DNA from: Chryseolinea lacunae
GTDB lineage: Bacteria; Bacteroidota; Bacteroidia; Cytophagales; Cyclobacteriaceae
Assembly: GCF_016735595.1 (NCBI RefSeq)
Contig: NZ_JAERRB010000001.1
Location: forward strand, 620,001 to 684,000
Reading direction: 5' to 3'
DNA: 64,000 nt
Each line of letters opens with the position of its first letter. The first letter of the stretch is position 1. The position numbers were made by a program, and so were the translations under genes. Positions 3,523 through 18,217 of the stretch are shown one piece after another. A model generated the notes under the pieces. The model was given only the letters and a program-made list of their open reading frames with translations. It ran no database searches and was not told the DNA's origin.

Positions 3523-3812
3523 TGTTTTTTCGAATGAGTGTTTTAATGATCGTATAAACGCTTTTCAGAAAGCGGTACAATATCGGGCTTAAATTATATT
3601 AAGCAAAGCTTTAATGCCTTCGGCGGAGTGGTCAAACTACGTAGACAGATAGACGCCTTCCGGGGACAGCCACCCTTACACGCATTCGTTTTCCGAACAA
3701 CAGTCGTCCGCTACTGGTCACGTTCAAATTGAAGACCTTTGTTTCCAGGCTCCCGTGACGGAATTTTCCTGGCCTCATAATTGGAACAGGTCGTTTGCTT
3801 AACCTTGCCCTT
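3523..3812. other. Intergenic region between divergent gnd and FtsX permease
   Basis: About 290 bp separate the two divergent genes. It holds the small inverted repeat at 3559-3574 near gnd and a -7-like box TAACCTTG at 3800-3807 immediately before the permease ATG. I see no ORF of quality and no strong terminator. Confidence 0.5.
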
Positions 3813-6242
3813 ATGCTGAAAAACCATTTTATACTCGCCATCCGGAATCTGCGGCGCAACAAGACCTACTCGCTCATCACTATCCTTGGTCTCGCGCTGG
3901 GTGTGGCGTGTTGCCTCCTGCTGGTGCTCTACATCGAAGACGAAGTGCGCTACGATGCCCAGCACCCACAGCTCAACTCCCTCTATCGCGTGGTCACACA
4001 CATGGCACGCGACACACAATCGGAAGACCTGGCCGTTTGCTCACCCCCGTTAGCCCAGGCCATGGCCGACGAGCTTCCCGAAGTGACCGCCGCCCTGCGC
4101 CTCGTGAGCGCGCCCGGCGTGTCGGAAAACCTGGTGCGTTTCGAAGACAAAACCTTCTATGAACCCAACGGCTACATGGCCGACTCCACATTGTTCGATT
4201 TCTTTTCGTTTTCCTTTGTGGAAGGCACTCCCGTGCAGGCCTTGTCAAATCCCAACACCGTGGTAATCACCACCACCCTGGCACACAAACTCTTTGGCGA
4301 CGCATCGGCCCTCGACCGTGTCATCGCTATCAACCAAGGTGGCCCCGGCGGCGACTACAAAATCACCGGCGTGGTGAAAGACCTCGACCACAGCCACATC
4401 CAGGCAAACTTCTTTATCTCCCTGACAAGCTCCGGTGGATGGACTGAATTTATCCGGACCTCTGGCGAATGGGCAGGCCAAAATTTTGTTCCCTCCTACA
4501 TCAAGCTCACCGGTGGAAGCGACGTGCAAGCCGTAGAGAAAAAAATGAACGACGTGCTGGCGCGTCACGGTGCCGAAGCCATGAAAACATTTGGGTTCAC
4601 CAAGACACTCACGCTGGAGCCCGTGAAAGATATTTACCTGCGATCGTCGGTCGACAAAAATCCACGCATTGTCTACCTCTACATTGTGGGTGCCATTGCC
4701 ACGTTCATCCTGCTCATTGCCTGCATCAACTTCATCAACCTCACCACCGCGCGCGCCACACGACGCGCCACAGAAATCGGCGTTCGCAAAGTGATGGGAG
4801 CCTTCCGTGGCGTGCTCATCCGCCAACTCCTGGCCGAAGCCATGCTGGTGGTTGTGGTCGCGGTGATCATCAGTCTGATCATTCTGGAAATTACCCTGCC
4901 CGGGTTCAACACGCTGGTTGGAAAATCCATCTCGTTGCAAACCATGCCGTCGCTTTCGTTCCTGTTCACCTTGCTGGCCATCACGTTGCTGACCGGGCTG
5001 CTGGCGGGAAGTTATCCTGCGTTTTACCTCACCTCATTTTCGCCCGCCGTCGTGCTGAAAAACAAGATGGCCGTCGGGTCATCGGGCAGCTTGCGCAAGG
5101 GGCTGGTGGTCTTTCAATTTTCAGTAGCCATCGTGTTGGTCTGCGGCATGATCATGGTGTCGCAGCAACTTTCCTACATCCGCGAAAAAGAACTGGGCTT
5201 CGATGCGAAAGCGAAAGTTATTGTGCCCCTTCGCACAGACGCAGCCCGCAAGGCATACGCCACCCTGAAGCAAGCTTTTCAACAGCAACCGGCCGTGAAA
5301 AAATTATCGGGTGCCGACTATTTGCCGGGACAATACTGGAACGACATTGTATTGTTCCGGCCCGGCAAAACACGCGAAGAAGGCGTGGGACATTTCATGA
5401 ACAACGTGGCCCACGATCTCAATGACGTGCTCAACATCCGGCTCACGGCCGGTCGCCCTCTCTCCCCCAATCTGGCAGGCGACCAGGGAAAGATCATCAT
5501 CAACGAGGCCTCGGCCAAGGCGTTGGGCTTCACACCAACCCAGGCCATCGGGCAACGGGTGGAACAAAGCTTTTTTAAGAACGCCGACGGAACACCGGTG
5601 TCGCTTGAGATTGTGGGCGTGATGCAGGACTTTCATCGCACATCGCTACACGACCCCATCTCGCCGGCCTTCTTCATGGCACCTTCACTGGGTCAGGGTG
5701 AAAGCTTCAGCAACGTTGTGCTGGATGTGCGCACAGAATCCTTCGCCAAAACCATAGAAGGCCTGAAAGCAGACTGGAACAAGATTGTGAGCGACGCACC
5801 GTTTGAATACTCTTTCCTCGACCAAAGCCTGCAGCAACAATACACCCAGGATCAAAAAGCATCCACCATCATCACTACCTTCACCGTGGTAGCGTTCATG
5901 CTCTGCTGCCTGGGGTTGTATGGACTGTCGTCGTATGTGGCCGAACGCAGGGTGAAAGAGATTGGCGTGCGCAAGGTCATGGGCGCGTCGGTGCAGCAGA
6001 TCGTGACGCTCATGTCGTCGGAATTTATGAAGCCGGTGTGCATCGCCATTGTGCTGGCCGTTCCCGTGGCGTGGTATGCCATCGACAAATGGCTGGAAGG
6101 CTTTGCCTACAAAACGCCGCTTAGCGTTTTTGTCTTCATCGCTGGAGCACTCATTGCGTTGTCGGTGGCATGGCTCACAGTGAGTTTTGAGTCGCTGCGG
6201 GCAGCCTTGCGCAATCCGGCAGACGCCCTCCGGAACGAATAA
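3813..6242 (+). CDS. Double-FtsX (MacB-type) ABC transporter permease
   Basis: Inner-membrane permease of the ABC3/FtsX superfamily, 809 residues. It has two MacB-like halves. A first TM helix at about residues 15-40 follows the typical short cytosolic start (MLKNHFILAIRNL). A periplasmic domain follows to about 285, then three TM helices (about 288-430) containing TEIGVRKVMGA near residue 320. A second periplasmic domain follows, then a C-terminal TM group with KEIGVRKVMGA near 714. The reading frame extends upstream to a TTG at 3795, but ATG 3813 gives the canonical N-terminus. No ATP-binding subunit is encoded nearby. Substrate unknown; such permeases export lipids, peptides or drugs, or signal mechanically. 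Two paralogues lie at 13-18 kb. A terminator follows at 6262. Confidence 0.9.
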   Translation: MLKNHFILAIRNLRRNKTYSLITILGLALGVACCLLLVLYIEDEVRYDAQHPQLNSLYRVVTHMARDTQSEDLAVCSPPLAQAMADELPEVTAALRLVSAPGVSENLVRFEDKTFYEPNGYMADSTLFDFFSFSFVEGTPVQALSNPNTVVITTTLAHKLFGDASALDRVIAINQGGPGGDYKITGVVKDLDHSHIQANFFISLTSSGGWTEFIRTSGEWAGQNFVPSYIKLTGGSDVQAVEKKMNDVLARHGAEAMKTFGFTKTLTLEPVKDIYLRSSVDKNPRIVYLYIVGAIATFILLIACINFINLTTARATRRATEIGVRKVMGAFRGVLIRQLLAEAMLVVVVAVIISLIILEITLPGFNTLVGKSISLQTMPSLSFLFTLLAITLLTGLLAGSYPAFYLTSFSPAVVLKNKMAVGSSGSLRKGLVVFQFSVAIVLVCGMIMVSQQLSYIREKELGFDAKAKVIVPLRTDAARKAYATLKQAFQQQPAVKKLSGADYLPGQYWNDIVLFRPGKTREEGVGHFMNNVAHDLNDVLNIRLTAGRPLSPNLAGDQGKIIINEASAKALGFTPTQAIGQRVEQSFFKNADGTPVSLEIVGVMQDFHRTSLHDPISPAFFMAPSLGQGESFSNVVLDVRTESFAKTIEGLKADWNKIVSDAPFEYSFLDQSLQQQYTQDQKASTIITTFTVVAFMLCCLGLYGLSSYVAERRVKEIGVRKVMGASVQQIVTLMSSEFMKPVCIAIVLAVPVAWYAIDKWLEGFAYKTPLSVFVFIAGALIALSVAWLTVSFESLRAALRNPADALRNE

Positions 6243-9981: not shown

Positions 9982-10794
9982 TTACCGGAAATTGGCGGCA
10001 ATCTTTTCAAGGTATTCTTCTATCGGAAGTTCGCGACGCATGGCCACCAGGTTTTTTCCCGCGTCGCCCACCAGCGTTCTGAAGGCTTTGCTTTCGCCTG
10101 TGGCCAATGCATAGATGGTATTCACAATATCCTGTGGATCATCAAGTGCCTTGGGGTCGAGGTTGTTGAACAGGGTTTTCACTTTTGAGGTGATGTTGTC
10201 GTAGGCCGTGATGGCGGGGTTGGTGTTCCAGATGATGTTGTTCTGGAAATTGTTGTCGCGCGAGCCGCCTTGTTCAACGAGTCGCAGCGCAATGTTGAGT
10301 GGTTCAAGTTCGTAGTAGAGGGCTTCTGTCAATCCTTCCAGGGCAAACTTCGACATCGTGTAGAGCGAACCCACCGGTATAGCCGAGGTCACACCGATAA
10401 ACGAACTGATGTTGATGAACATGCCTCCGCCCTTACTTCTGAAGTGTGGCAGAAATTTACGGATCACATTGATGGGACCGCGAACATTCACAGCATACTG
10501 CCAGTCGATGGTCGATTCTTCGGCCAACTCCAGCGCCCCATACGATCCAAAGCCCGCATTGTTCACCACCACATCGATAGTACCAAACGCTTCCACCGCT
10601 GCAGCCACTGCCGCTTCGGTTTGCTGAGCATCCGTTACGTCGAGTTTGAACAGACGGATGTTGGGGTGCTTGCCAAGCTCAATCTCTTTTTCGGGCGAAC
10701 GCAGCGTGGCTGCCACGTTCCAGCCAGCATTGGCAAAATGAAGCGCCGCGAGCTTTCCCAGCCCGGTGCTGGTGATAAAAACAGTTTTTTTCAT
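9982..10794 (-). CDS. Short-chain dehydrogenase/reductase with shortened cofactor motif
   Basis: 270 residues, classical SDR by content: NNAG at 78-81, NISS near 128-131 and active-site YxxxK as YTMSK with Tyr145 and Lys149. It would oxidise or reduce a small alcohol/carbonyl with NAD(P). The N-terminal glycine motif is odd: the sequence reads FITSTGLGK where the family has TGAxxGxGK, as if two residues (G-A) had been lost in frame. The GG-SRDNNF segment near 196-203 also differs from the usual PG-x-x-T-x-F. Activity is therefore uncertain. Divergently transcribed from a TetR-family gene with shared operators, so it is probably that regulator's target. Confidence 0.88.
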   Translation of the reverse strand: MKKTVFITSTGLGKLAALHFANAGWNVAATLRSPEKEIELGKHPNIRLFKLDVTDAQQTEAAVAAAVEAFGTIDVVVNNAGFGSYGALELAEESTIDWQYAVNVRGPINVIRKFLPHFRSKGGGMFINISSFIGVTSAIPVGSLYTMSKFALEGLTEALYYELEPLNIALRLVEQGGSRDNNFQNNIIWNTNPAITAYDNITSKVKTLFNNLDPKALDDPQDIVNTIYALATGESKAFRTLVGDAGKNLVAMRRELPIEEYLEKIAANFR

Positions 10795-10813
10795 AGTTTC
10801 TACGTTTTATTAA

Positions 10814-10835
10814 TTACGGAACATTTATTCCGTAA
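10814..10835. promoter_or_regulatory. Operator 1 of SDR/TetR region
   Basis: TTACGGAA-N6-TTCCGTAA, perfect 8-bp arms. It overlaps the end of the minus-strand -7 element and the expected start of the SDR transcript. It shares the core GGAA-N6-TTCC with two other sites in this intergenic region. Confidence 0.7.
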
Positions 10836-10865
10836 ATCTAGTTAATAAGGAACGATCATTCCAAA
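10833..10865 (-). promoter_or_regulatory. Promoter for the SDR gene
   Basis: Minus strand: -33 TTTG (10865-10862), 21-bp spacer, -7 TAGATTTA (10840-10833), close to the Bacteroidota consensus TTTG-N19-21-TAnnTTTG. Operator 2 lies in the spacer and operator 1 overlaps the -7 box. Confidence 0.6.
10849..10862. promoter_or_regulatory. Operator 2 of SDR/TetR region
   Basis: GGAA-N6-TTCC, the same core and spacing as operators 1 and 3, located between the -33 and -7 of the SDR promoter. Confidence 0.6.
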
Positions 10866-10900
10866 TAATAGTTTCAAAAACGTGATCCCTGCCATACCAT

Positions 10901-10933
10901 TTTGGAATATAGGTTCCGTAATGTGTATCTTTA
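10901..10933 (+). promoter_or_regulatory. Promoter for the TetR-family gene
   Basis: TTTG (10901-10904), 21-bp spacer, TATCTTTA (10926-10933), 18 bp before the tetR ATG. Geometry is identical to the divergent SDR promoter. Operator 3 lies inside it, suggesting autorepression. Confidence 0.6.
10904..10921. promoter_or_regulatory. Operator 3 of SDR/TetR region
   Basis: GGAA-N6-TTCCGTAA (core 10904-10917), the same spacing as operators 1 and 2 and the same TTCCGTAA right arm as operator 1. It sits between -33 and -7 of the tetR promoter. Confidence 0.65.
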
Positions 10934-10951
10934 GGGCTCACCGCTACGCTT

Positions 10952-11536
10952 ATGGCACGCACAAAAGAATTCGATGAAACAGAAGTCCTGGACAAGGCTA
11001 TGGACCTCTTTTGGAGGAAAGGCTACAACGGTATCTCCGCGCAGGAGCTGGTGGATGGTCTGGGCCTGAGCCGCTCCAGTCTCTATGACACCTTCGTGGA
11101 TAAACACACGCTATTCACCCGGGCCCTGGAGCACTATCGCGCCAAGGGCACAAACGACATCGTGAATTTGCTGGACAACGCCACCAGCATTCCGGAGGCC
11201 ATCAAAGAAGTTTTGATCCGCGCGCAAAAGAGCAGTCTTCAAAACAAAGACGCCCGTGGTTGCTTCATGGTGAACACACGCGTGGAATTGGCGCCGCACG
11301 ATCCGGAGATCGCCGCCATTGTGAAAGAAAACTGGCAGGCGCTGGAAGACGCCTACTATCGTGCACTGAAGCGAGGCCAGGACATGGGCCAGATCACAAC
11401 AACCCAAAATGCGCGGGCACTTGCGCGCTTTGTGGTGAACAATTCATGGGGGCTCAGCGTCTACGGAAAATCGGACGCTGACAAAAAAGTGATAGACGAC
11501 ATCATCCGCGTGACGCTGCAAACGCTTACCCCCTAA
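10952..11536 (+). CDS. TetR/AcrR-family transcriptional regulator
   Basis: 194 residues. The N-terminal ~60 residues hold the TetR HTH (DKAMDLFWRKGYNGISAQEL, then GLGLSRSSLYDTFVDKHTLF). The rest is a helical ligand-binding domain, of the type found in YcdC/RutR-like or AcrR-like members; ligand unknown. It is divergent from the SDR gene. Three GGAA-N6-TTCC operators in the 157-bp gap overlap both promoters, so it very probably represses itself and the SDR. The start ATG is 18 bp after a TATCTTTA -7 box. Confidence 0.93.
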   Translation: MARTKEFDETEVLDKAMDLFWRKGYNGISAQELVDGLGLSRSSLYDTFVDKHTLFTRALEHYRAKGTNDIVNLLDNATSIPEAIKEVLIRAQKSSLQNKDARGCFMVNTRVELAPHDPEIAAIVKENWQALEDAYYRALKRGQDMGQITTTQNARALARFVVNNSWGLSVYGKSDADKKVIDDIIRVTLQTLTP

Positions 11537-13225: not shown

Positions 13226-15598
13226 TCACTCTGTCTTCAGCGACGTTGCCGGATTCATCGCGGCCGCTTTCATGGATTGGTAACCTACCGTTAACAAAGC
13301 GATAACAACCGTCACCGCAAAGGCCAGCATAAAAATCCAGGGTTCAAGCGCCACGGCGTATTTGAAATCCTGAAGCCATGCATGCATCAACCACCAGGCT
13401 ATGGGCCCGGCAATGACAAATGAAAATACAACCAGCGCTGAAAACTCGCGTCCAAAAATCCAGAGGATGTGTGTCACCGTTCCGCCCAACACTTTGCGGA
13501 TACCGATCTCTTTTGTCTTCTGGTTGGCCATGAACGACACCAGACCATACAGCCCCATGCAACCGATGGCGATGGCTATGCCGGCAAACACCTGGATAAG
13601 CTTCAACAACGTCTCCTCGGTTTGATAGAAGCCCGCTATTTTTTCGTCTAGAAACTGATACTCAAAAATCTGATTGGGATACTGCGCCGACCACACCTTG
13701 TCGATGGCCGCTATTGTCCGCCCCAGGTCAGCGATTTTCACCTTCAGCGCATAAAAATTGAACATGTCGCCGGCAGTTGAGAAGAACATCGGGCTGACAT
13801 CTTCGTGAAAAGTTCGGTCGTGAAAATCCTTCACCACGCCCACCACCCTGGCCTTGTAGTCTCCTCCGTCGGCCGAGATCACCGTGCCCAGGATGGCTTC
13901 GGGCGAACTTAGGTTGAGCTTTTGAACAAGAGTTTCGTTCACGAGAAACTCACGCACCGTGTCGGAAGGCTCAAGGTTGCGGCCCGCCACCAGGGTCAGG
14001 TTGAAAAGGTTCACATATTGATCGTCGGCACCGCGGAAGGTGATGGCAAAGTCTTCCGGCTCCGTGCGCCCTTCATACACCATGGTGGTGCGCCACGACA
14101 TGTCAGATGCCGGCGCATCATAACACTGCGAGATTTGTTCAACTCCCGGAACGCGTGCAAGTTCGTTTCGAAGTGTGTTTCGCGTATCCTGCGATCCGAT
14201 GGGCACCATCACAATCGCATCCTTTGCAAAACCGATATCGCCTTTCGTGGCATAGCGCATTTGATACACTACCACAATCAGCCCAATGACAAGCACCTGC
14301 GATATCGTGAACTGCATCACAATGAGCGAGCGGCGCAAGTTGAAACCACCGGCATGCAAACTGGAAAGCTTGCCCTTCAGTGCCATGGCCGGCCGGTAGC
14401 CCGACAAGAGCAGGCCTGGGTAGGCACCCGCAATAAACGTGACCAACACGGCCAACACCGGAACGAACAACTGCAGTCCTCCATCCGTACCAAAGTCGAG
14501 CGCCATACGCGATCCAAACGATAGATTGATCGTGGGCAACATCGCCGCAGCAAGACTGATGGCAATGACCATGGCCAGCACCACAACGCAACTCGTCTCG
14601 GTCATGAATTGCCAAAACAGTTGCGCCCTCATGCTGCCAAGCACTTTTCGCACGCCCACTTCGTGCGCGCGGTTTAACGCCTGGGCCGTAGCGAGATTTA
14701 CAAAGTTCACACAGGCGGTGACCAGCAGAAAAAAACCAACAAACGACAACACCCACAGGTCGCGTTTTTCCATGGGGCCACCAAAGCGCGCGTTGTAGTG
14801 CATGTCGTGCAATGGCTGTAGCCTGTATACATGCACATTCTTGTGCGTGGGCCGATATTTTTTGACCAGGGCCGGCAATGCTGCCTCAACCTGAGCCGGC
14901 GCCACACCGGGACGAAGGCGAACAAAACAACTCATCGAGCTGGATATTCCACCCCACGAGTCGTCGCTGGCCATCCATTCGTCATATCGTTTCAGGCTGC
15001 CATACGCCACAAAAAGTTCAACCTGCAAATCGGTGTTTTCCGGAATGTCTTTCAGAATGCCGACGATCTTCACGTCGATAAGGTTGTTGAGACGCAATGT
15101 TTTTGAGAGCGGGTTGTCATCGCCAAAATATTTCCGGGCAAGACGTTCGGTGATGAACGCTGTGTTGGGTTCGTGAAGCCTGGTTGCGCCGTGCAGCACA
15201 GGGAAGTTGAAGATGTCGAAGAATTCTTCTTCGGCAAACGCCAGATCGTCTTTGAATTTCTTTGCCTCCCCTTGTTCGTCCACGGCCACCAGCGTGTGAT
15301 CGAAGATGACCTGACGCGCCACTTTTTCTCCAAACGTATAGTCGTCGCGGAACACTTTGCCGAACGGGTTCGGCACGTGGGCCGTATACGTCACCTCATC
15401 GCGGTGTTGCTCGGTCACCACCCTGTAGACGCGATCGCCGTCGCTATGAAAATTTTCGAAGTTCAGGTGATGTTTCACCAGCGCAAACAGGATAATCACA
15501 CAGGACATGCCCAGCGCTAAGCCCCCTATGTTAATGAAGGCGTAGGAAGGATTTCGGGTGATGTTTCGAAAAGCAATTTTCAGATGATTGATGAGCAT
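13226..15598 (-). CDS. Double-FtsX (MacB-type) ABC transporter permease
   Basis: 790 residues from ATG 15598, which gives the standard MLINHLKIAFRNITRN start; the frame stays open to 15631. Same plan as the 3.8-kb paralogue: TM1 at about 15-40, periplasmic MacB-like domain, TM group at about 275-430 with HEVGVRKVLGS, second periplasmic domain, and a C-terminal TM group with KEIGIRKVLGG near 685. No ATPase subunit is adjacent. It is downstream of a second permease on the same strand, separated by about 186 bp. Function (export or signalling) cannot be assigned. Confidence 0.9.
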   Translation of the reverse strand: MLINHLKIAFRNITRNPSYAFINIGGLALGMSCVIILFALVKHHLNFENFHSDGDRVYRVVTEQHRDEVTYTAHVPNPFGKVFRDDYTFGEKVARQVIFDHTLVAVDEQGEAKKFKDDLAFAEEEFFDIFNFPVLHGATRLHEPNTAFITERLARKYFGDDNPLSKTLRLNNLIDVKIVGILKDIPENTDLQVELFVAYGSLKRYDEWMASDDSWGGISSSMSCFVRLRPGVAPAQVEAALPALVKKYRPTHKNVHVYRLQPLHDMHYNARFGGPMEKRDLWVLSFVGFFLLVTACVNFVNLATAQALNRAHEVGVRKVLGSMRAQLFWQFMTETSCVVVLAMVIAISLAAAMLPTINLSFGSRMALDFGTDGGLQLFVPVLAVLVTFIAGAYPGLLLSGYRPAMALKGKLSSLHAGGFNLRRSLIVMQFTISQVLVIGLIVVVYQMRYATKGDIGFAKDAIVMVPIGSQDTRNTLRNELARVPGVEQISQCYDAPASDMSWRTTMVYEGRTEPEDFAITFRGADDQYVNLFNLTLVAGRNLEPSDTVREFLVNETLVQKLNLSSPEAILGTVISADGGDYKARVVGVVKDFHDRTFHEDVSPMFFSTAGDMFNFYALKVKIADLGRTIAAIDKVWSAQYPNQIFEYQFLDEKIAGFYQTEETLLKLIQVFAGIAIAIGCMGLYGLVSFMANQKTKEIGIRKVLGGTVTHILWIFGREFSALVVFSFVIAGPIAWWLMHAWLQDFKYAVALEPWIFMLAFAVTVVIALLTVGYQSMKAAAMNPATSLKTE

Positions 15599-15784
15599 AT
15601 CATGGGGTGTTGACGCTTCGCCATGCAACACAATCGTGCCAAACCCGAAGAACGTTCTCCATGCGTTGCTTTCCGCTTATCCGGTCATTGTGTTGGTCGG
15701 TTTTGAAACGTCGTTGTTCGATTCCATACGATTCCATTTACGACGCATTCGGGTTGGCCGGTTTGGGTTGCGGCGTGTTAAAGC

Positions 15785-18217
15785 TTACTCGCTGCGCAAT
15801 GCCTCGGTAGGATTTCCTTTTGCTGCCCTGATAATATGACCGCTCAACGCCAGGCCCGTGATGAAAAGCACTGCCACGCCGGCGAGTGCAAATATCCACC
15901 AGCTCAGTGATGCGCGATAGGCAAAGTTGCTCAACCATTGCTCTACCAAATAATACGAAACGGCCGACCCGGCCACAATGGCCACCACAATCCAGCGCAC
16001 AAAATCGCGCGACAGCAATGTAGCGATATTCAGCACCGAGGCGCCCAATACTTTTCGAACCCCGATCTCTTTGGTGCGAAGGGCGGTAAAAAACGAGGCC
16101 AATCCCAATAACCCAACCGACGCGATGAGCACGGCCAGAATTGAAAACGCCGAGTAGATCTTGGCCGTGGTTTGCTCGCGGGCAAAAAGTCGATTAAAAT
16201 CCTGATCCAGAAAAGAATAGTCGAATACATAGCCGTTCGACAAGCGCTTCCACGTTTGCTCGATACCCTGCAACGTACCGGCTACATCGCTTCCCTCGAT
16301 TTTCACGAGAATATACGTAGCCTCGTTCTCCATTTTGCGCATGTCGCCATTCGGGAAATAGAGCACTAAAGGTTCAATGGCATGATGGAACGATTTGAAA
16401 TGAAAATCCTTTACCACGCCGACCACGTTCACATCTTTTTTCCCAAGCGTGCCATTGTCAATGATAGTCTGCAATGGATCGTCGAGGTGCAGGGCCTTCA
16501 CGGCGGCTTCGTTCAGAATGGCTTGTGATTTTTCTGTGCCGTCTGCGGTATATCCTTTTCCGGCAACCAGTTTCAGCGAAAGCGTTTCCAGAATGTCGGC
16601 GTCGGCAACCAACGGAAAAACCGTATAAAAATCGTCGGCGTCAGTGCCCGCAAAATGTTGTCCGTGTCCGTCGAAGTGGCGGCCGGGCGTGGTGTTGGTG
16701 AAGCTCACGTTCAACACGCCCGACTGTTTCAACAGTTCGTTCTTGAAGGCCTGCCGGTTTTCACCGAGTCCCTGCGGGCGCTTCAGCACCACGAGGTGAT
16801 CTTTTGCAAAGCCCAGGTTTCGGCTGGTCATATAAGCCAGCTGGCGATAGGCCACCAGCGTGCAAACCACCATGGCCACACAGATGGAAAATTGAAAGAT
16901 GACAAGCCCGTTGCGCAGCCATTCGTGGTTGCCGCGAATCATCACACGGCCCTTCAGCGCGCGAATGGGATTGAACGAGGCAAACGTGAGCGCCGGATAA
17001 ATTCCGGACACCACCCCCAGCAGTACGGCAAAGCCCACAAGCCCCAGCACAAATACGGGGTTTGTATAGGAAAGGTGAATATTTTTGTCGGCCACCACAT
17101 TAAATAACGGCAGCCCCAGCTCCAGCAAACCAATGCCCACCAGCAACCCGATGAGCGCCACCAAAACCGACTCGGTGAGGAACTGTTTAAACAACATAAC
17201 GCCGCGGCTACCCGACACCTTCCGGATGCCTACTTCCTTTGTTCGCTGCAACGACAACGCCGTGGCCAGGTTGGTATAGTTGATGCACACCAGCAACAGG
17301 ATGATGGCCGCTATACCAATCAGGGCGTAGATCAACGTTTGTTTACCCTCCTGATTCTCGAAAATCATCGTGCTCAGATGCACCTCGGCCAACGGCATAA
17401 AGAAGAAGGCATACCGATCGGTCCCCGCATAGGTTTCTGCATATGTCTTTTTAAACTTCTTCACCAGAAAAGGCTCGTAGTAGGCTTTGACAAATTTTGG
17501 CAATCCACTTTCCACCTGGTCAATGGATGCGTTTTTATTCAACAACACATAGGTGCTGAACGTGTGATTGTTCCAGCTGTCGGTGAAATCAAAATTGATG
17601 GATTTGAATGAGCTGAGCGACACCAGCATGTCGAATGTGAAGTGACCGTTGGGGGGATAGTCTTTCACAACACCCGTCACCTTGCATTCGCTAAAGAACG
17701 TCTCAAAGTTCAGCGTTTGTCCAATCGGGTTTTCGTCTCCAAAATATTTGCGGGCTGTCGATTCGGTGATGACCACCGCGTTGGGCTCTTTCAGTGCCGT
17801 TTTCGGATTGCCTTTCAGAAAAGGAATGGTAAAGATATCGAAGACGGTAGAGTCGGCTCCAAGAATGTGATCTTCTGCGTGCTGACGTTCGCCACGGCGC
17901 ACCATCACATCTTCGAACCAGAAACACAACCGGGCAGAAGCTTCGATCTCGGGATAGAATTCTTTCAGGGCCGGCCCGGTGGGTGGCGTGGTCCATCCCG
18001 TGCGACCTTCCTCCTGATCCGACTTGCTATCGACACCTACCAAATAGATACGGTCTTTTTTCTCATGAAAATTGTCGTAGCTCAGCTCGTCATAGGCATA
18101 CAAACCCAGCATCAACGAGGCCGCTATGCCCACGGCCAGGCCGAGGGTGAGCAGCACAGAATAGAACTTGTTTCGGACAATGTTGCGCCAGGAAATAAGG
18201 ATGTAGTGCTTCAGCAT
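15785..18217 (-). CDS. Double-FtsX (MacB-type) ABC transporter permease
   Basis: 810 residues. It begins MLKHYILISWRNIVRNK with TM1 at about 20-42, then a periplasmic domain to ~280, TM helices in the 285-430 range containing KEVGIRKVSGS, a second periplasmic half, and a C-terminal TM group with KEIGVRKVLGA. It is related to, but clearly diverged from, the other two permeases in the window, so the tandem pair with 13.2 kb is an old duplication rather than a recent one. No nucleotide-binding subunit, adaptor or outer-membrane factor is adjacent. Substrate unknown. Confidence 0.9.
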   Translation of the reverse strand: MLKHYILISWRNIVRNKFYSVLLTLGLAVGIAASLMLGLYAYDELSYDNFHEKKDRIYLVGVDSKSDQEEGRTGWTTPPTGPALKEFYPEIEASARLCFWFEDVMVRRGERQHAEDHILGADSTVFDIFTIPFLKGNPKTALKEPNAVVITESTARKYFGDENPIGQTLNFETFFSECKVTGVVKDYPPNGHFTFDMLVSLSSFKSINFDFTDSWNNHTFSTYVLLNKNASIDQVESGLPKFVKAYYEPFLVKKFKKTYAETYAGTDRYAFFFMPLAEVHLSTMIFENQEGKQTLIYALIGIAAIILLLVCINYTNLATALSLQRTKEVGIRKVSGSRGVMLFKQFLTESVLVALIGLLVGIGLLELGLPLFNVVADKNIHLSYTNPVFVLGLVGFAVLLGVVSGIYPALTFASFNPIRALKGRVMIRGNHEWLRNGLVIFQFSICVAMVVCTLVAYRQLAYMTSRNLGFAKDHLVVLKRPQGLGENRQAFKNELLKQSGVLNVSFTNTTPGRHFDGHGQHFAGTDADDFYTVFPLVADADILETLSLKLVAGKGYTADGTEKSQAILNEAAVKALHLDDPLQTIIDNGTLGKKDVNVVGVVKDFHFKSFHHAIEPLVLYFPNGDMRKMENEATYILVKIEGSDVAGTLQGIEQTWKRLSNGYVFDYSFLDQDFNRLFAREQTTAKIYSAFSILAVLIASVGLLGLASFFTALRTKEIGVRKVLGASVLNIATLLSRDFVRWIVVAIVAGSAVSYYLVEQWLSNFAYRASLSWWIFALAGVAVLFITGLALSGHIIRAAKGNPTEALRSE

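Follow-up and report, generated by a model that had tools for sequence, protein, structure and literature searches.

The best match of the TetR-family protein considered here, by sequence as well as by fold, is CifR of Pseudomonas aeruginosa (PDB 6nsn, 6nsr, 6nsm), which carries a cysteine at the matching place. In the passages of PMC8244358 that deal with it, CifR is described as repressing an adjoining enzyme operon and as being released by certain epoxides, and the title of a work cited there gives it two binding sites. The likeness applies at the protein level, with ~26% identity, and the target of CifR is an epoxide hydrolase operon, not a short-chain dehydrogenase (SDR) gene. NemR of Escherichia coli (PDB 4yze), also a TetR-family repressor, matches in fold (TM 0.84); this is again a comparison of proteins, at 16% identity, and its targets are other ones. 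According to excerpts of PMC7464077, NemR represses reductase and glyoxalase genes and responds to electrophiles and HOCl via its cysteines.

Two other systems resemble the present one by description. AltR of Pantoea ananatis is presented in passages of PMC13178969 as an autorepressing TetR-family protein with an N6-centred inverted repeat over its promoter and one key cysteine, three features that recall the system described below. Its half-sites differ, however (CAATCTAC-N6-GTAGATTG), and the term 'short-chain' does not occur there and no SDR is named. DitR of Stenotrophomonas maltophilia is likewise of the TetR type, with three binding boxes over one promoter and cysteine-based release (extracts of PMC9342713). 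The protein type, the three boxes and the cysteine are all shared by description, but the target of DitR is a transporter operon. Where TetR-family genes lie <200 bp from a divergent neighbour, this neighbour was repressed in all five cases tested, according to passages of PMC3511530.

Switches of this type are ordinary and well known. To our knowledge, Bacteroidota have few mapped repressor operators, and their promoters are unlike the E. coli type. The main -7 box of Flavobacterium psychrophilum is TAnnTTTG, according to excerpts of PMC9723704. The operator code described here was not found in the literature searched: six typical site sequences have no occurrence in the texts, and none of the papers listed on TetR and SDR in Bacteroidetes or Flavobacterium, or on CifR, describes this system in its title or at the start of its abstract.

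The divergent SDR/TetR gap

In the 64 kb window, by which we mean the whole stretch of DNA analysed, an SDR gene (SDR-A) and a TetR gene diverge from a short gap (Table 1). We propose, with a probability of roughly 0.87, that this gap serves as common control region for a self-repressing TetR regulator and its SDR target, and that a second SDR encoded elsewhere in the genome, SDR-B, is most likely repressed as well.

Table 1. Features of the gap, its flanking genes and the second operator pair (window coordinates unless a contig is named)
Feature	Position	Strand	Remarks
Intergenic gap	10795-10951		157 bp, between the SDR-A and TetR genes
SDR-A, short-chain dehydrogenase	9982..10794	-	270 aa
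TetR-family repressor	10952..11536	+	194 aa; TetR_N and TetR_C_13; conserved Cys104
Operator 1, GGAACATTTATTCC	10818..10831		SDR promoter, predicted downstream-type site; one base past the -7 box
Operator 1, 22-bp version	10814-10835		Full arms
Operator 2, GGAACGATCATTCC	10849..10862		SDR promoter, predicted upstream-type site; fused to the TTTG box
Operator 3, GGAATATAGGTTCC	10904..10917		TetR promoter, predicted site; fused to the TTTG box
SDR promoter string, TTTG-N21-TAnnTTTA	10865-10833	-	
SDR promoter -33 box, TTTG	10862..10865	-	
SDR promoter -7 box, TAGATTTA	10833..10840	-	TACCTTTA at the corresponding place in G002
TetR promoter string, TTTG-N21-TAnnTTTA	10901-10933	+	
TetR promoter -33 box, TTTG	10901..10904	+	
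TetR promoter -7 box, TATCTTTA	10926..10933	+	TACTTTTG in G002, spacer 20
SDR-B operator pair	C3:104648-104695		Pitch 34; before SDR-B, a 251-aa SDR

The window holds three copies of the palindrome GGAA-N6-TTCC, all of them inside the gap and where the first-pass annotation had placed them. Over 64 kb this number is unremarkable (mean of 1.2 in shuffled sequences, with three reached in 10 of 100 shuffles). At the density of the genome, 213 places in 7.9 Mb, three copies in this gap have a P of ~1e-8, and ~5e-4 such gaps would be expected genome-wide. The two promoter strings that had been read in the gap, one per strand, are also present, and no further TTTG-N19..23-TAnnTTT[AG] string occurs on either strand of the window. 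Operators 2 and 3 lie in the two promoter spacers as proposed, apart from their first G, which the TTTG box shares. The proposed overlap of operator 1 with the SDR -7 box depends on the length considered: the 14-bp core ends one base before the box, so only the 22-bp version overlaps it. Full 22-bp arms are found at operator 1 alone, with two mismatches at the third site and more than three at the second. Operator 3 does not have the YRNNYR form.

Three ORFs of ~800 aa flank the locus on both sides (3795-6242, 13226-15631 and 15785-18217) and look, by eye, like FtsX/MacB-type permeases. A search for viral relatives gave four stretches with peptide-pattern matches, none of which was confirmed.

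Another genome of the same genus, G002, has the same divergent gene pair, with TetR and SDR proteins 67% and 64% identical to those of the window. Its gap of 145 bp holds three exact sites with pitches of 31 and 34 bp and promoter spacers of 21 and 20; the window pitches are 31 bp (sites 1-2) and 55 bp (sites 2-3). Operator 1 has an identical string at an identical place, the pitch of 31 bp between operators 1 and 2 is kept, and operator 3 has its counterpart in the third site. Thus, the sites, the promoters and the SDR-side pitch are conserved although the gap length has changed, and the check that the first-pass annotation had suggested, conservation of the sites in an orthologous SDR/TetR gap, found all three retained. 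The pitches between sites 2 and 3 differ by 21 bp, or two helical turns; as this is a single case, we make no claim on helical phasing. SDR-A orthologs (E <= 1e-60) were searched in 194 genomes of the order, a sample to which G002 evidently did not belong and in which apparently at most 13 first candidates were scored per genome, and were found in its own genome only. In G003, also of this genus, there are 23 GGAAYRNNYRTTCC places versus 2 for the control pattern.

Operator pairs and promoter layout across Bacteroidota

We searched 390 genomes of the order for pairs of GGAA-N6-TTCC sites separated by 14-21 bases. There were 40 such pairs in 35 genomes; the reversed control pattern gave 14, in 13 genomes. 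We placed 36 of the 40 pairs relative to genes, with longer fetches replacing loci L064 and L076; the other four, which have no fetched locus, are not YRNNYR by eye. Both sites are YRNNYR in 16 of the 36. All 16 have an SDR gene <=120 bp downstream, and 12 also have a TetR gene within 3 kb. At the other 20 placed pairs, SDR and TetR genes were found together in three cases, TetR alone in one and neither in 16.

A public genome collection was scanned with GGAAYRNNYRTTCC-N14..21-GGAAYRNNYRTTCC, which gave at least 118 stretches, versus a chance expectation of ~2 for the whole collection at even base composition. Among the 118 matches listed, TetR relatives were found at 68, and an SDR gene lies <=120 bp downstream in 85, of which 65 also have a TetR relative; the two genes are on one strand, in the order SDR then TetR, in 64 of these 65. 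Bacteroidota account for 86 of the matches listed and have an SDR downstream in 81. The remaining five are L120, L160 and L167, with TetR only, L128, whose SDR start is visible by eye and truncated by the locus end, and L172, where the pair lies inside a 481-aa ORF. Among the 32 listed matches from outside Bacteroidota, an SDR follows in four (L117, L136, L149 and L187). No SDR was detected directly downstream in 33 of the 118, and 28 of these 33 are from outside Bacteroidota, far above the chance figure. Thus, this TetR/SDR system is not alone in having the palindrome pair. In L107 (Aquabacterium), it precedes, by eye, another TetR-like gene, and L190 holds a tandem run of the site. GGAA-N6-TTCC was seen near the TetR start in 18 of the 68 TetR loci among the matches listed, at least two of the 18 being poor.

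In two Flavobacteriaceae loci (L120, 1373-3344; L160, 6057-7269), the operator pair and a related TetR gene are found with CMD-like and AhpC/TSA genes and no SDR. L083 (865-2308), from another family of the order, has a divergent TetR/SDR gap with two identical GGAACTATAATTCC sites at a pitch of 28; its TetR is only 31% identical, and divergent arrangements may have evolved repeatedly. In Nocardia aurantia (L117), a similar operator pair with a pitch of 35 stands before an SDR gene whose product shares 40% identity with SDR-B; a TetR relative (29%) is encoded on the opposite strand, a hint of the operator code outside Bacteroidota.

The 81 Bacteroidota promoters among the matches listed, which have an upstream-type site like operator 2, give the core consensus GGAAYRATYRTTCC, preceded by Y and followed by R; its YR letters were preset by the search pattern and its central AT was free. 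The consensus with TTAC/GTAA arms that had been put forward for the window does not apply generally to these 81 promoters, since what precedes the downstream core there is the final part of the -7 box and then a C, and we correct it to YGGAAYRATYRTTCCR. At site 1, too, the TTAC arm consists of the last letters of the -7 box and a C. The longer form TTACGGAA-N6-TTCCGTAA was rejected as a general consensus, with one perfect and one two-mismatch match in the window and its arms absent across the 81 promoters.

Read in the SDR direction, the usual order is TTTG on the upstream core, 21 or 23 bases, TAnnTTT and the downstream core, which lies one or four bases behind the -7 box in the listed Bacteroidota promoters; operator 1 is placed likewise. 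TAnnTTT stands between the cores in 72 of these 81 promoters, versus a mean of 13 and a maximum of 24 when the inter-core letters were shuffled, and nine have no -7 box string there. TTTG is exactly fused to the upstream core in 42 of the 81. The commonest spacer (21, in 36 of the 72) and the commonest gap (1, in 49 of the 72) are the values of the window SDR promoter. The pitch follows the TetR tree, with 25 changes versus a shuffled mean of 62; in this count, a locus without a YRNNYR pair formed a separate state and the pitch of G002 was entered as 34 (sites 2-3).

In the tandem SDR-TetR gaps (L092-L209; e.g. L116, L144, L198 and L204), TAnnTTTG is present in 55 of the 63 listed. A terminator-like hairpin with a T run occurs in 22 of the 63, versus 17 of 1260 shuffled gaps, and in 19 of the 22 hairpin gaps listed, versus 1 of 1260 shuffled gaps, a TAnnTTTG box and the 5' arm of the hairpin stem overlap. 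A transcript begun at that box would lack the hairpin arm, so that SDR transcripts would stop and TetR transcripts escape.

The regulator and its candidate targets

The window TetR scores 36.7 bits with PF00440 (TetR_N, the N-terminal helix-turn-helix; cut-off 24) and 31.7 bits with PF16925 (TetR_C_13, the C-terminal ligand/dimer domain; cut-off 27). Its structural model (pLDDT 91.8) has nine helices and the all-helical TetR fold; the closest structure is CifR bound to operator DNA (TM 0.83), followed by Rhodococcus 2i10 and NemR. Identification as AcuR (NF051457) was dismissed, at 31.8 bits versus an equivalog cut-off of 247. In a quick tree, for which part of the rows were chosen by motif, the window TetR is placed among 58 rows that form one clade (SH-aLRT 99). 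We compared the recognition helix with the operator at 27 of 30 loci picked by protein similarity: SRSS and the site occur together in six, another helix and the site in four, SRSS without the site in one and neither in 16. A rule equating SRSS with this operator is thus not strict across the 27 loci. The window TetR is best read as an autorepressing TetR of the CifR/NemR type that would control SDRs, and conservation supports the view that the predicted operators belong with this TetR family.

The relatives compared keep Cys104 without exception (102 of 102), a count made over non-identical TetR ORFs of 170-225 aa, with the duplicate loci L046-L048, L052, L065, L070 and L218 unused. It aligns with a cysteine of CifR (the Cys107 place) that is a serine in entry 6nsm, titled C107S.

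SDR-A matches PF00106 (adh_short) with 119.9 bits (cut-off 26.6); its best subfamily model, PRK06180, is below cut-off, and its type differs from that of the SDRs in SDR-TetR operons. In SDRs, TGxxxGxG is the cofactor loop motif and YxxxK the catalytic motif. The latter is present in the alignment as YTMSK. The glycine-rich cofactor loop reads TSTGLG, versus TGTSSGLG in the G002 ortholog, relative to which it has a two-residue in-frame deletion, and it does not match TGxxxGxG. SDR-A is possibly a failing enzyme with an impaired cofactor loop, and if the deletion inactivates it, SDR-B may be the target of importance. That an SDR is the likely target of the operators, as the first-pass annotation held, is supported by conservation.

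The operator pair is found at only two places in the own genome, the gap and contig C3 (Table 1), and the control pattern at none. SDR-B is 76% identical to a G002 SDR that is followed by its own regulator, TetR-2, itself 39% identical to the window TetR. TetR-2 belongs to a separate clade of 12 rows (SH-aLRT 99), and the other 11 rows have a pitch of 34. It was not found in the own genome, rated 100% complete, where its best match is the window TetR (39%), followed by proteins with 32% and 30%. There is no exact TAnnTTT between the SDR-B sites. Two other SDR-B-like genes of the own genome have no site within the ~250 bp scanned upstream, even at one mismatch. SDR-B is likely a trans target of the window TetR that has lost its own TetR-2: with its operator pair perfect here and TetR-2 missing, SDR-B is most simply read as having come under the window TetR as well.

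The expectation that the regulon could be read straight from the sequence holds for operator-pair targets, at two places. It fails for single-site targets, which cannot be read, because single YRNNYR sites in the own genome (14) are hardly above the control (9). With a looser pattern, GGAAYRNNNRTTCC, the own genome yields 34 distinct places, of which 31 are in ORFs of >=110 aa; this proves little, since such ORFs cover 87% of the bases examined, and even operator 1 of the window and the two sites on C3 fall in them. One asymmetric GGAA-N6-TTCC place, GGAATTTTTATTCC, lies outside ORFs of >=110 aa (G000:C25:132667).

The proposed switch and its alternatives

As the palindrome pair lies over matching promoter parts before related SDR genes in many Bacteroidota, the switch looks real. 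We infer that a TetR dimer would bind the palindrome YGGAAYRATYRTTCCR. At the SDR promoter, one operator would reach from the TTTG (-33) box into the spacer and the other would lie one base behind the -7 box, over the predicted start, so that bound repressor would block RNA polymerase twice. With the -7 box taken as spanning -12 to -5, as in PMC9723704, transcription would be predicted to start near 10828 for the SDR and near 10938 for the TetR gene. The TetR probably represses its own gene, and the single operator at the TTTG box of its promoter would make this autorepression weaker. The repressor would be released by an inducer, for which a thiol-reactive or carbonyl compound that acts at Cys104 is the most likely candidate. 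The window TetR would most likely repress SDR-B on contig C3 too, the pair having been kept and the own TetR lost.

In sequence, SDR-B comes closest, with 57-65% identity, to SDRs that Chitinophaga and Niastella encode in operons of pitch 34. The TetRs of these operons form another clade, which they share with TetR-2 of G002, a regulator absent from the own genome. The window TetR might thus bind its sites but control the window locus alone, the SDR-B operators being a relic of the loss of TetR-2. We regard this as possible but less likely than not, since both SDR-B operators are perfect here, whereas one is degenerate in G002, which kept TetR-2, and since window site 1 and the first SDR-B site are an identical string on opposite strands. 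Far more improbable is a reading in which some other, global regulator binds the palindromes and the TetR is a mere passenger. Although 50 of the 118 matches listed have no TetR above 40 bits within 2.5 kb, partly because the locus is cut, the scan used the motif alone and yet yielded TetR at the other 68, and in the own genome the pair stands at two SDR genes only.

As to the inducer, our preferred guess is an oxidant or electrophile, based on the alignment of Cys104 with the CifR cysteine, on cysteine release in NemR, AltR and DitR and on the operons with AhpC/TSA and CMD-like genes. Many TetR-family regulators bind their ligands non-covalently, and Cys104 is equally conserved in the 18 relatives for which no site is seen in the fetched locus, as expected of a structural residue. 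That the TetR responds reversibly to a small substrate or product of the SDR, and that the role of Cys104 is purely structural, accordingly comes close to an even chance, while falling short of it: the CifR cysteine aligned with Cys104 is one that the depositors mutated, and AhpC/TSA-like and CMD-like genes replace the SDR in the operons of two relatives, pointing to oxidants or electrophiles.

A broader reading of the whole, which we advance tentatively, would be that of a Bacteroidota-wide, cysteine-sensing TetR family that controls SDR genes, and sometimes peroxiredoxin-like genes, from a fixed two-operator promoter. Where a paralogous TetR was lost, this genome being an example, the remaining TetR would have taken over the orphaned dehydrogenase because both TetRs read one palindrome, and in many relatives the TetR -7 box would lie within the SDR terminator stem. 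Regulator, operator, promoter geometry and targets are tied together by conservation, which makes the system a test bed for the inducer and a set of parts for Bacteroidota genetics. With a code common to two paralogous repressors, the takeover of an orphan target would be directly testable.
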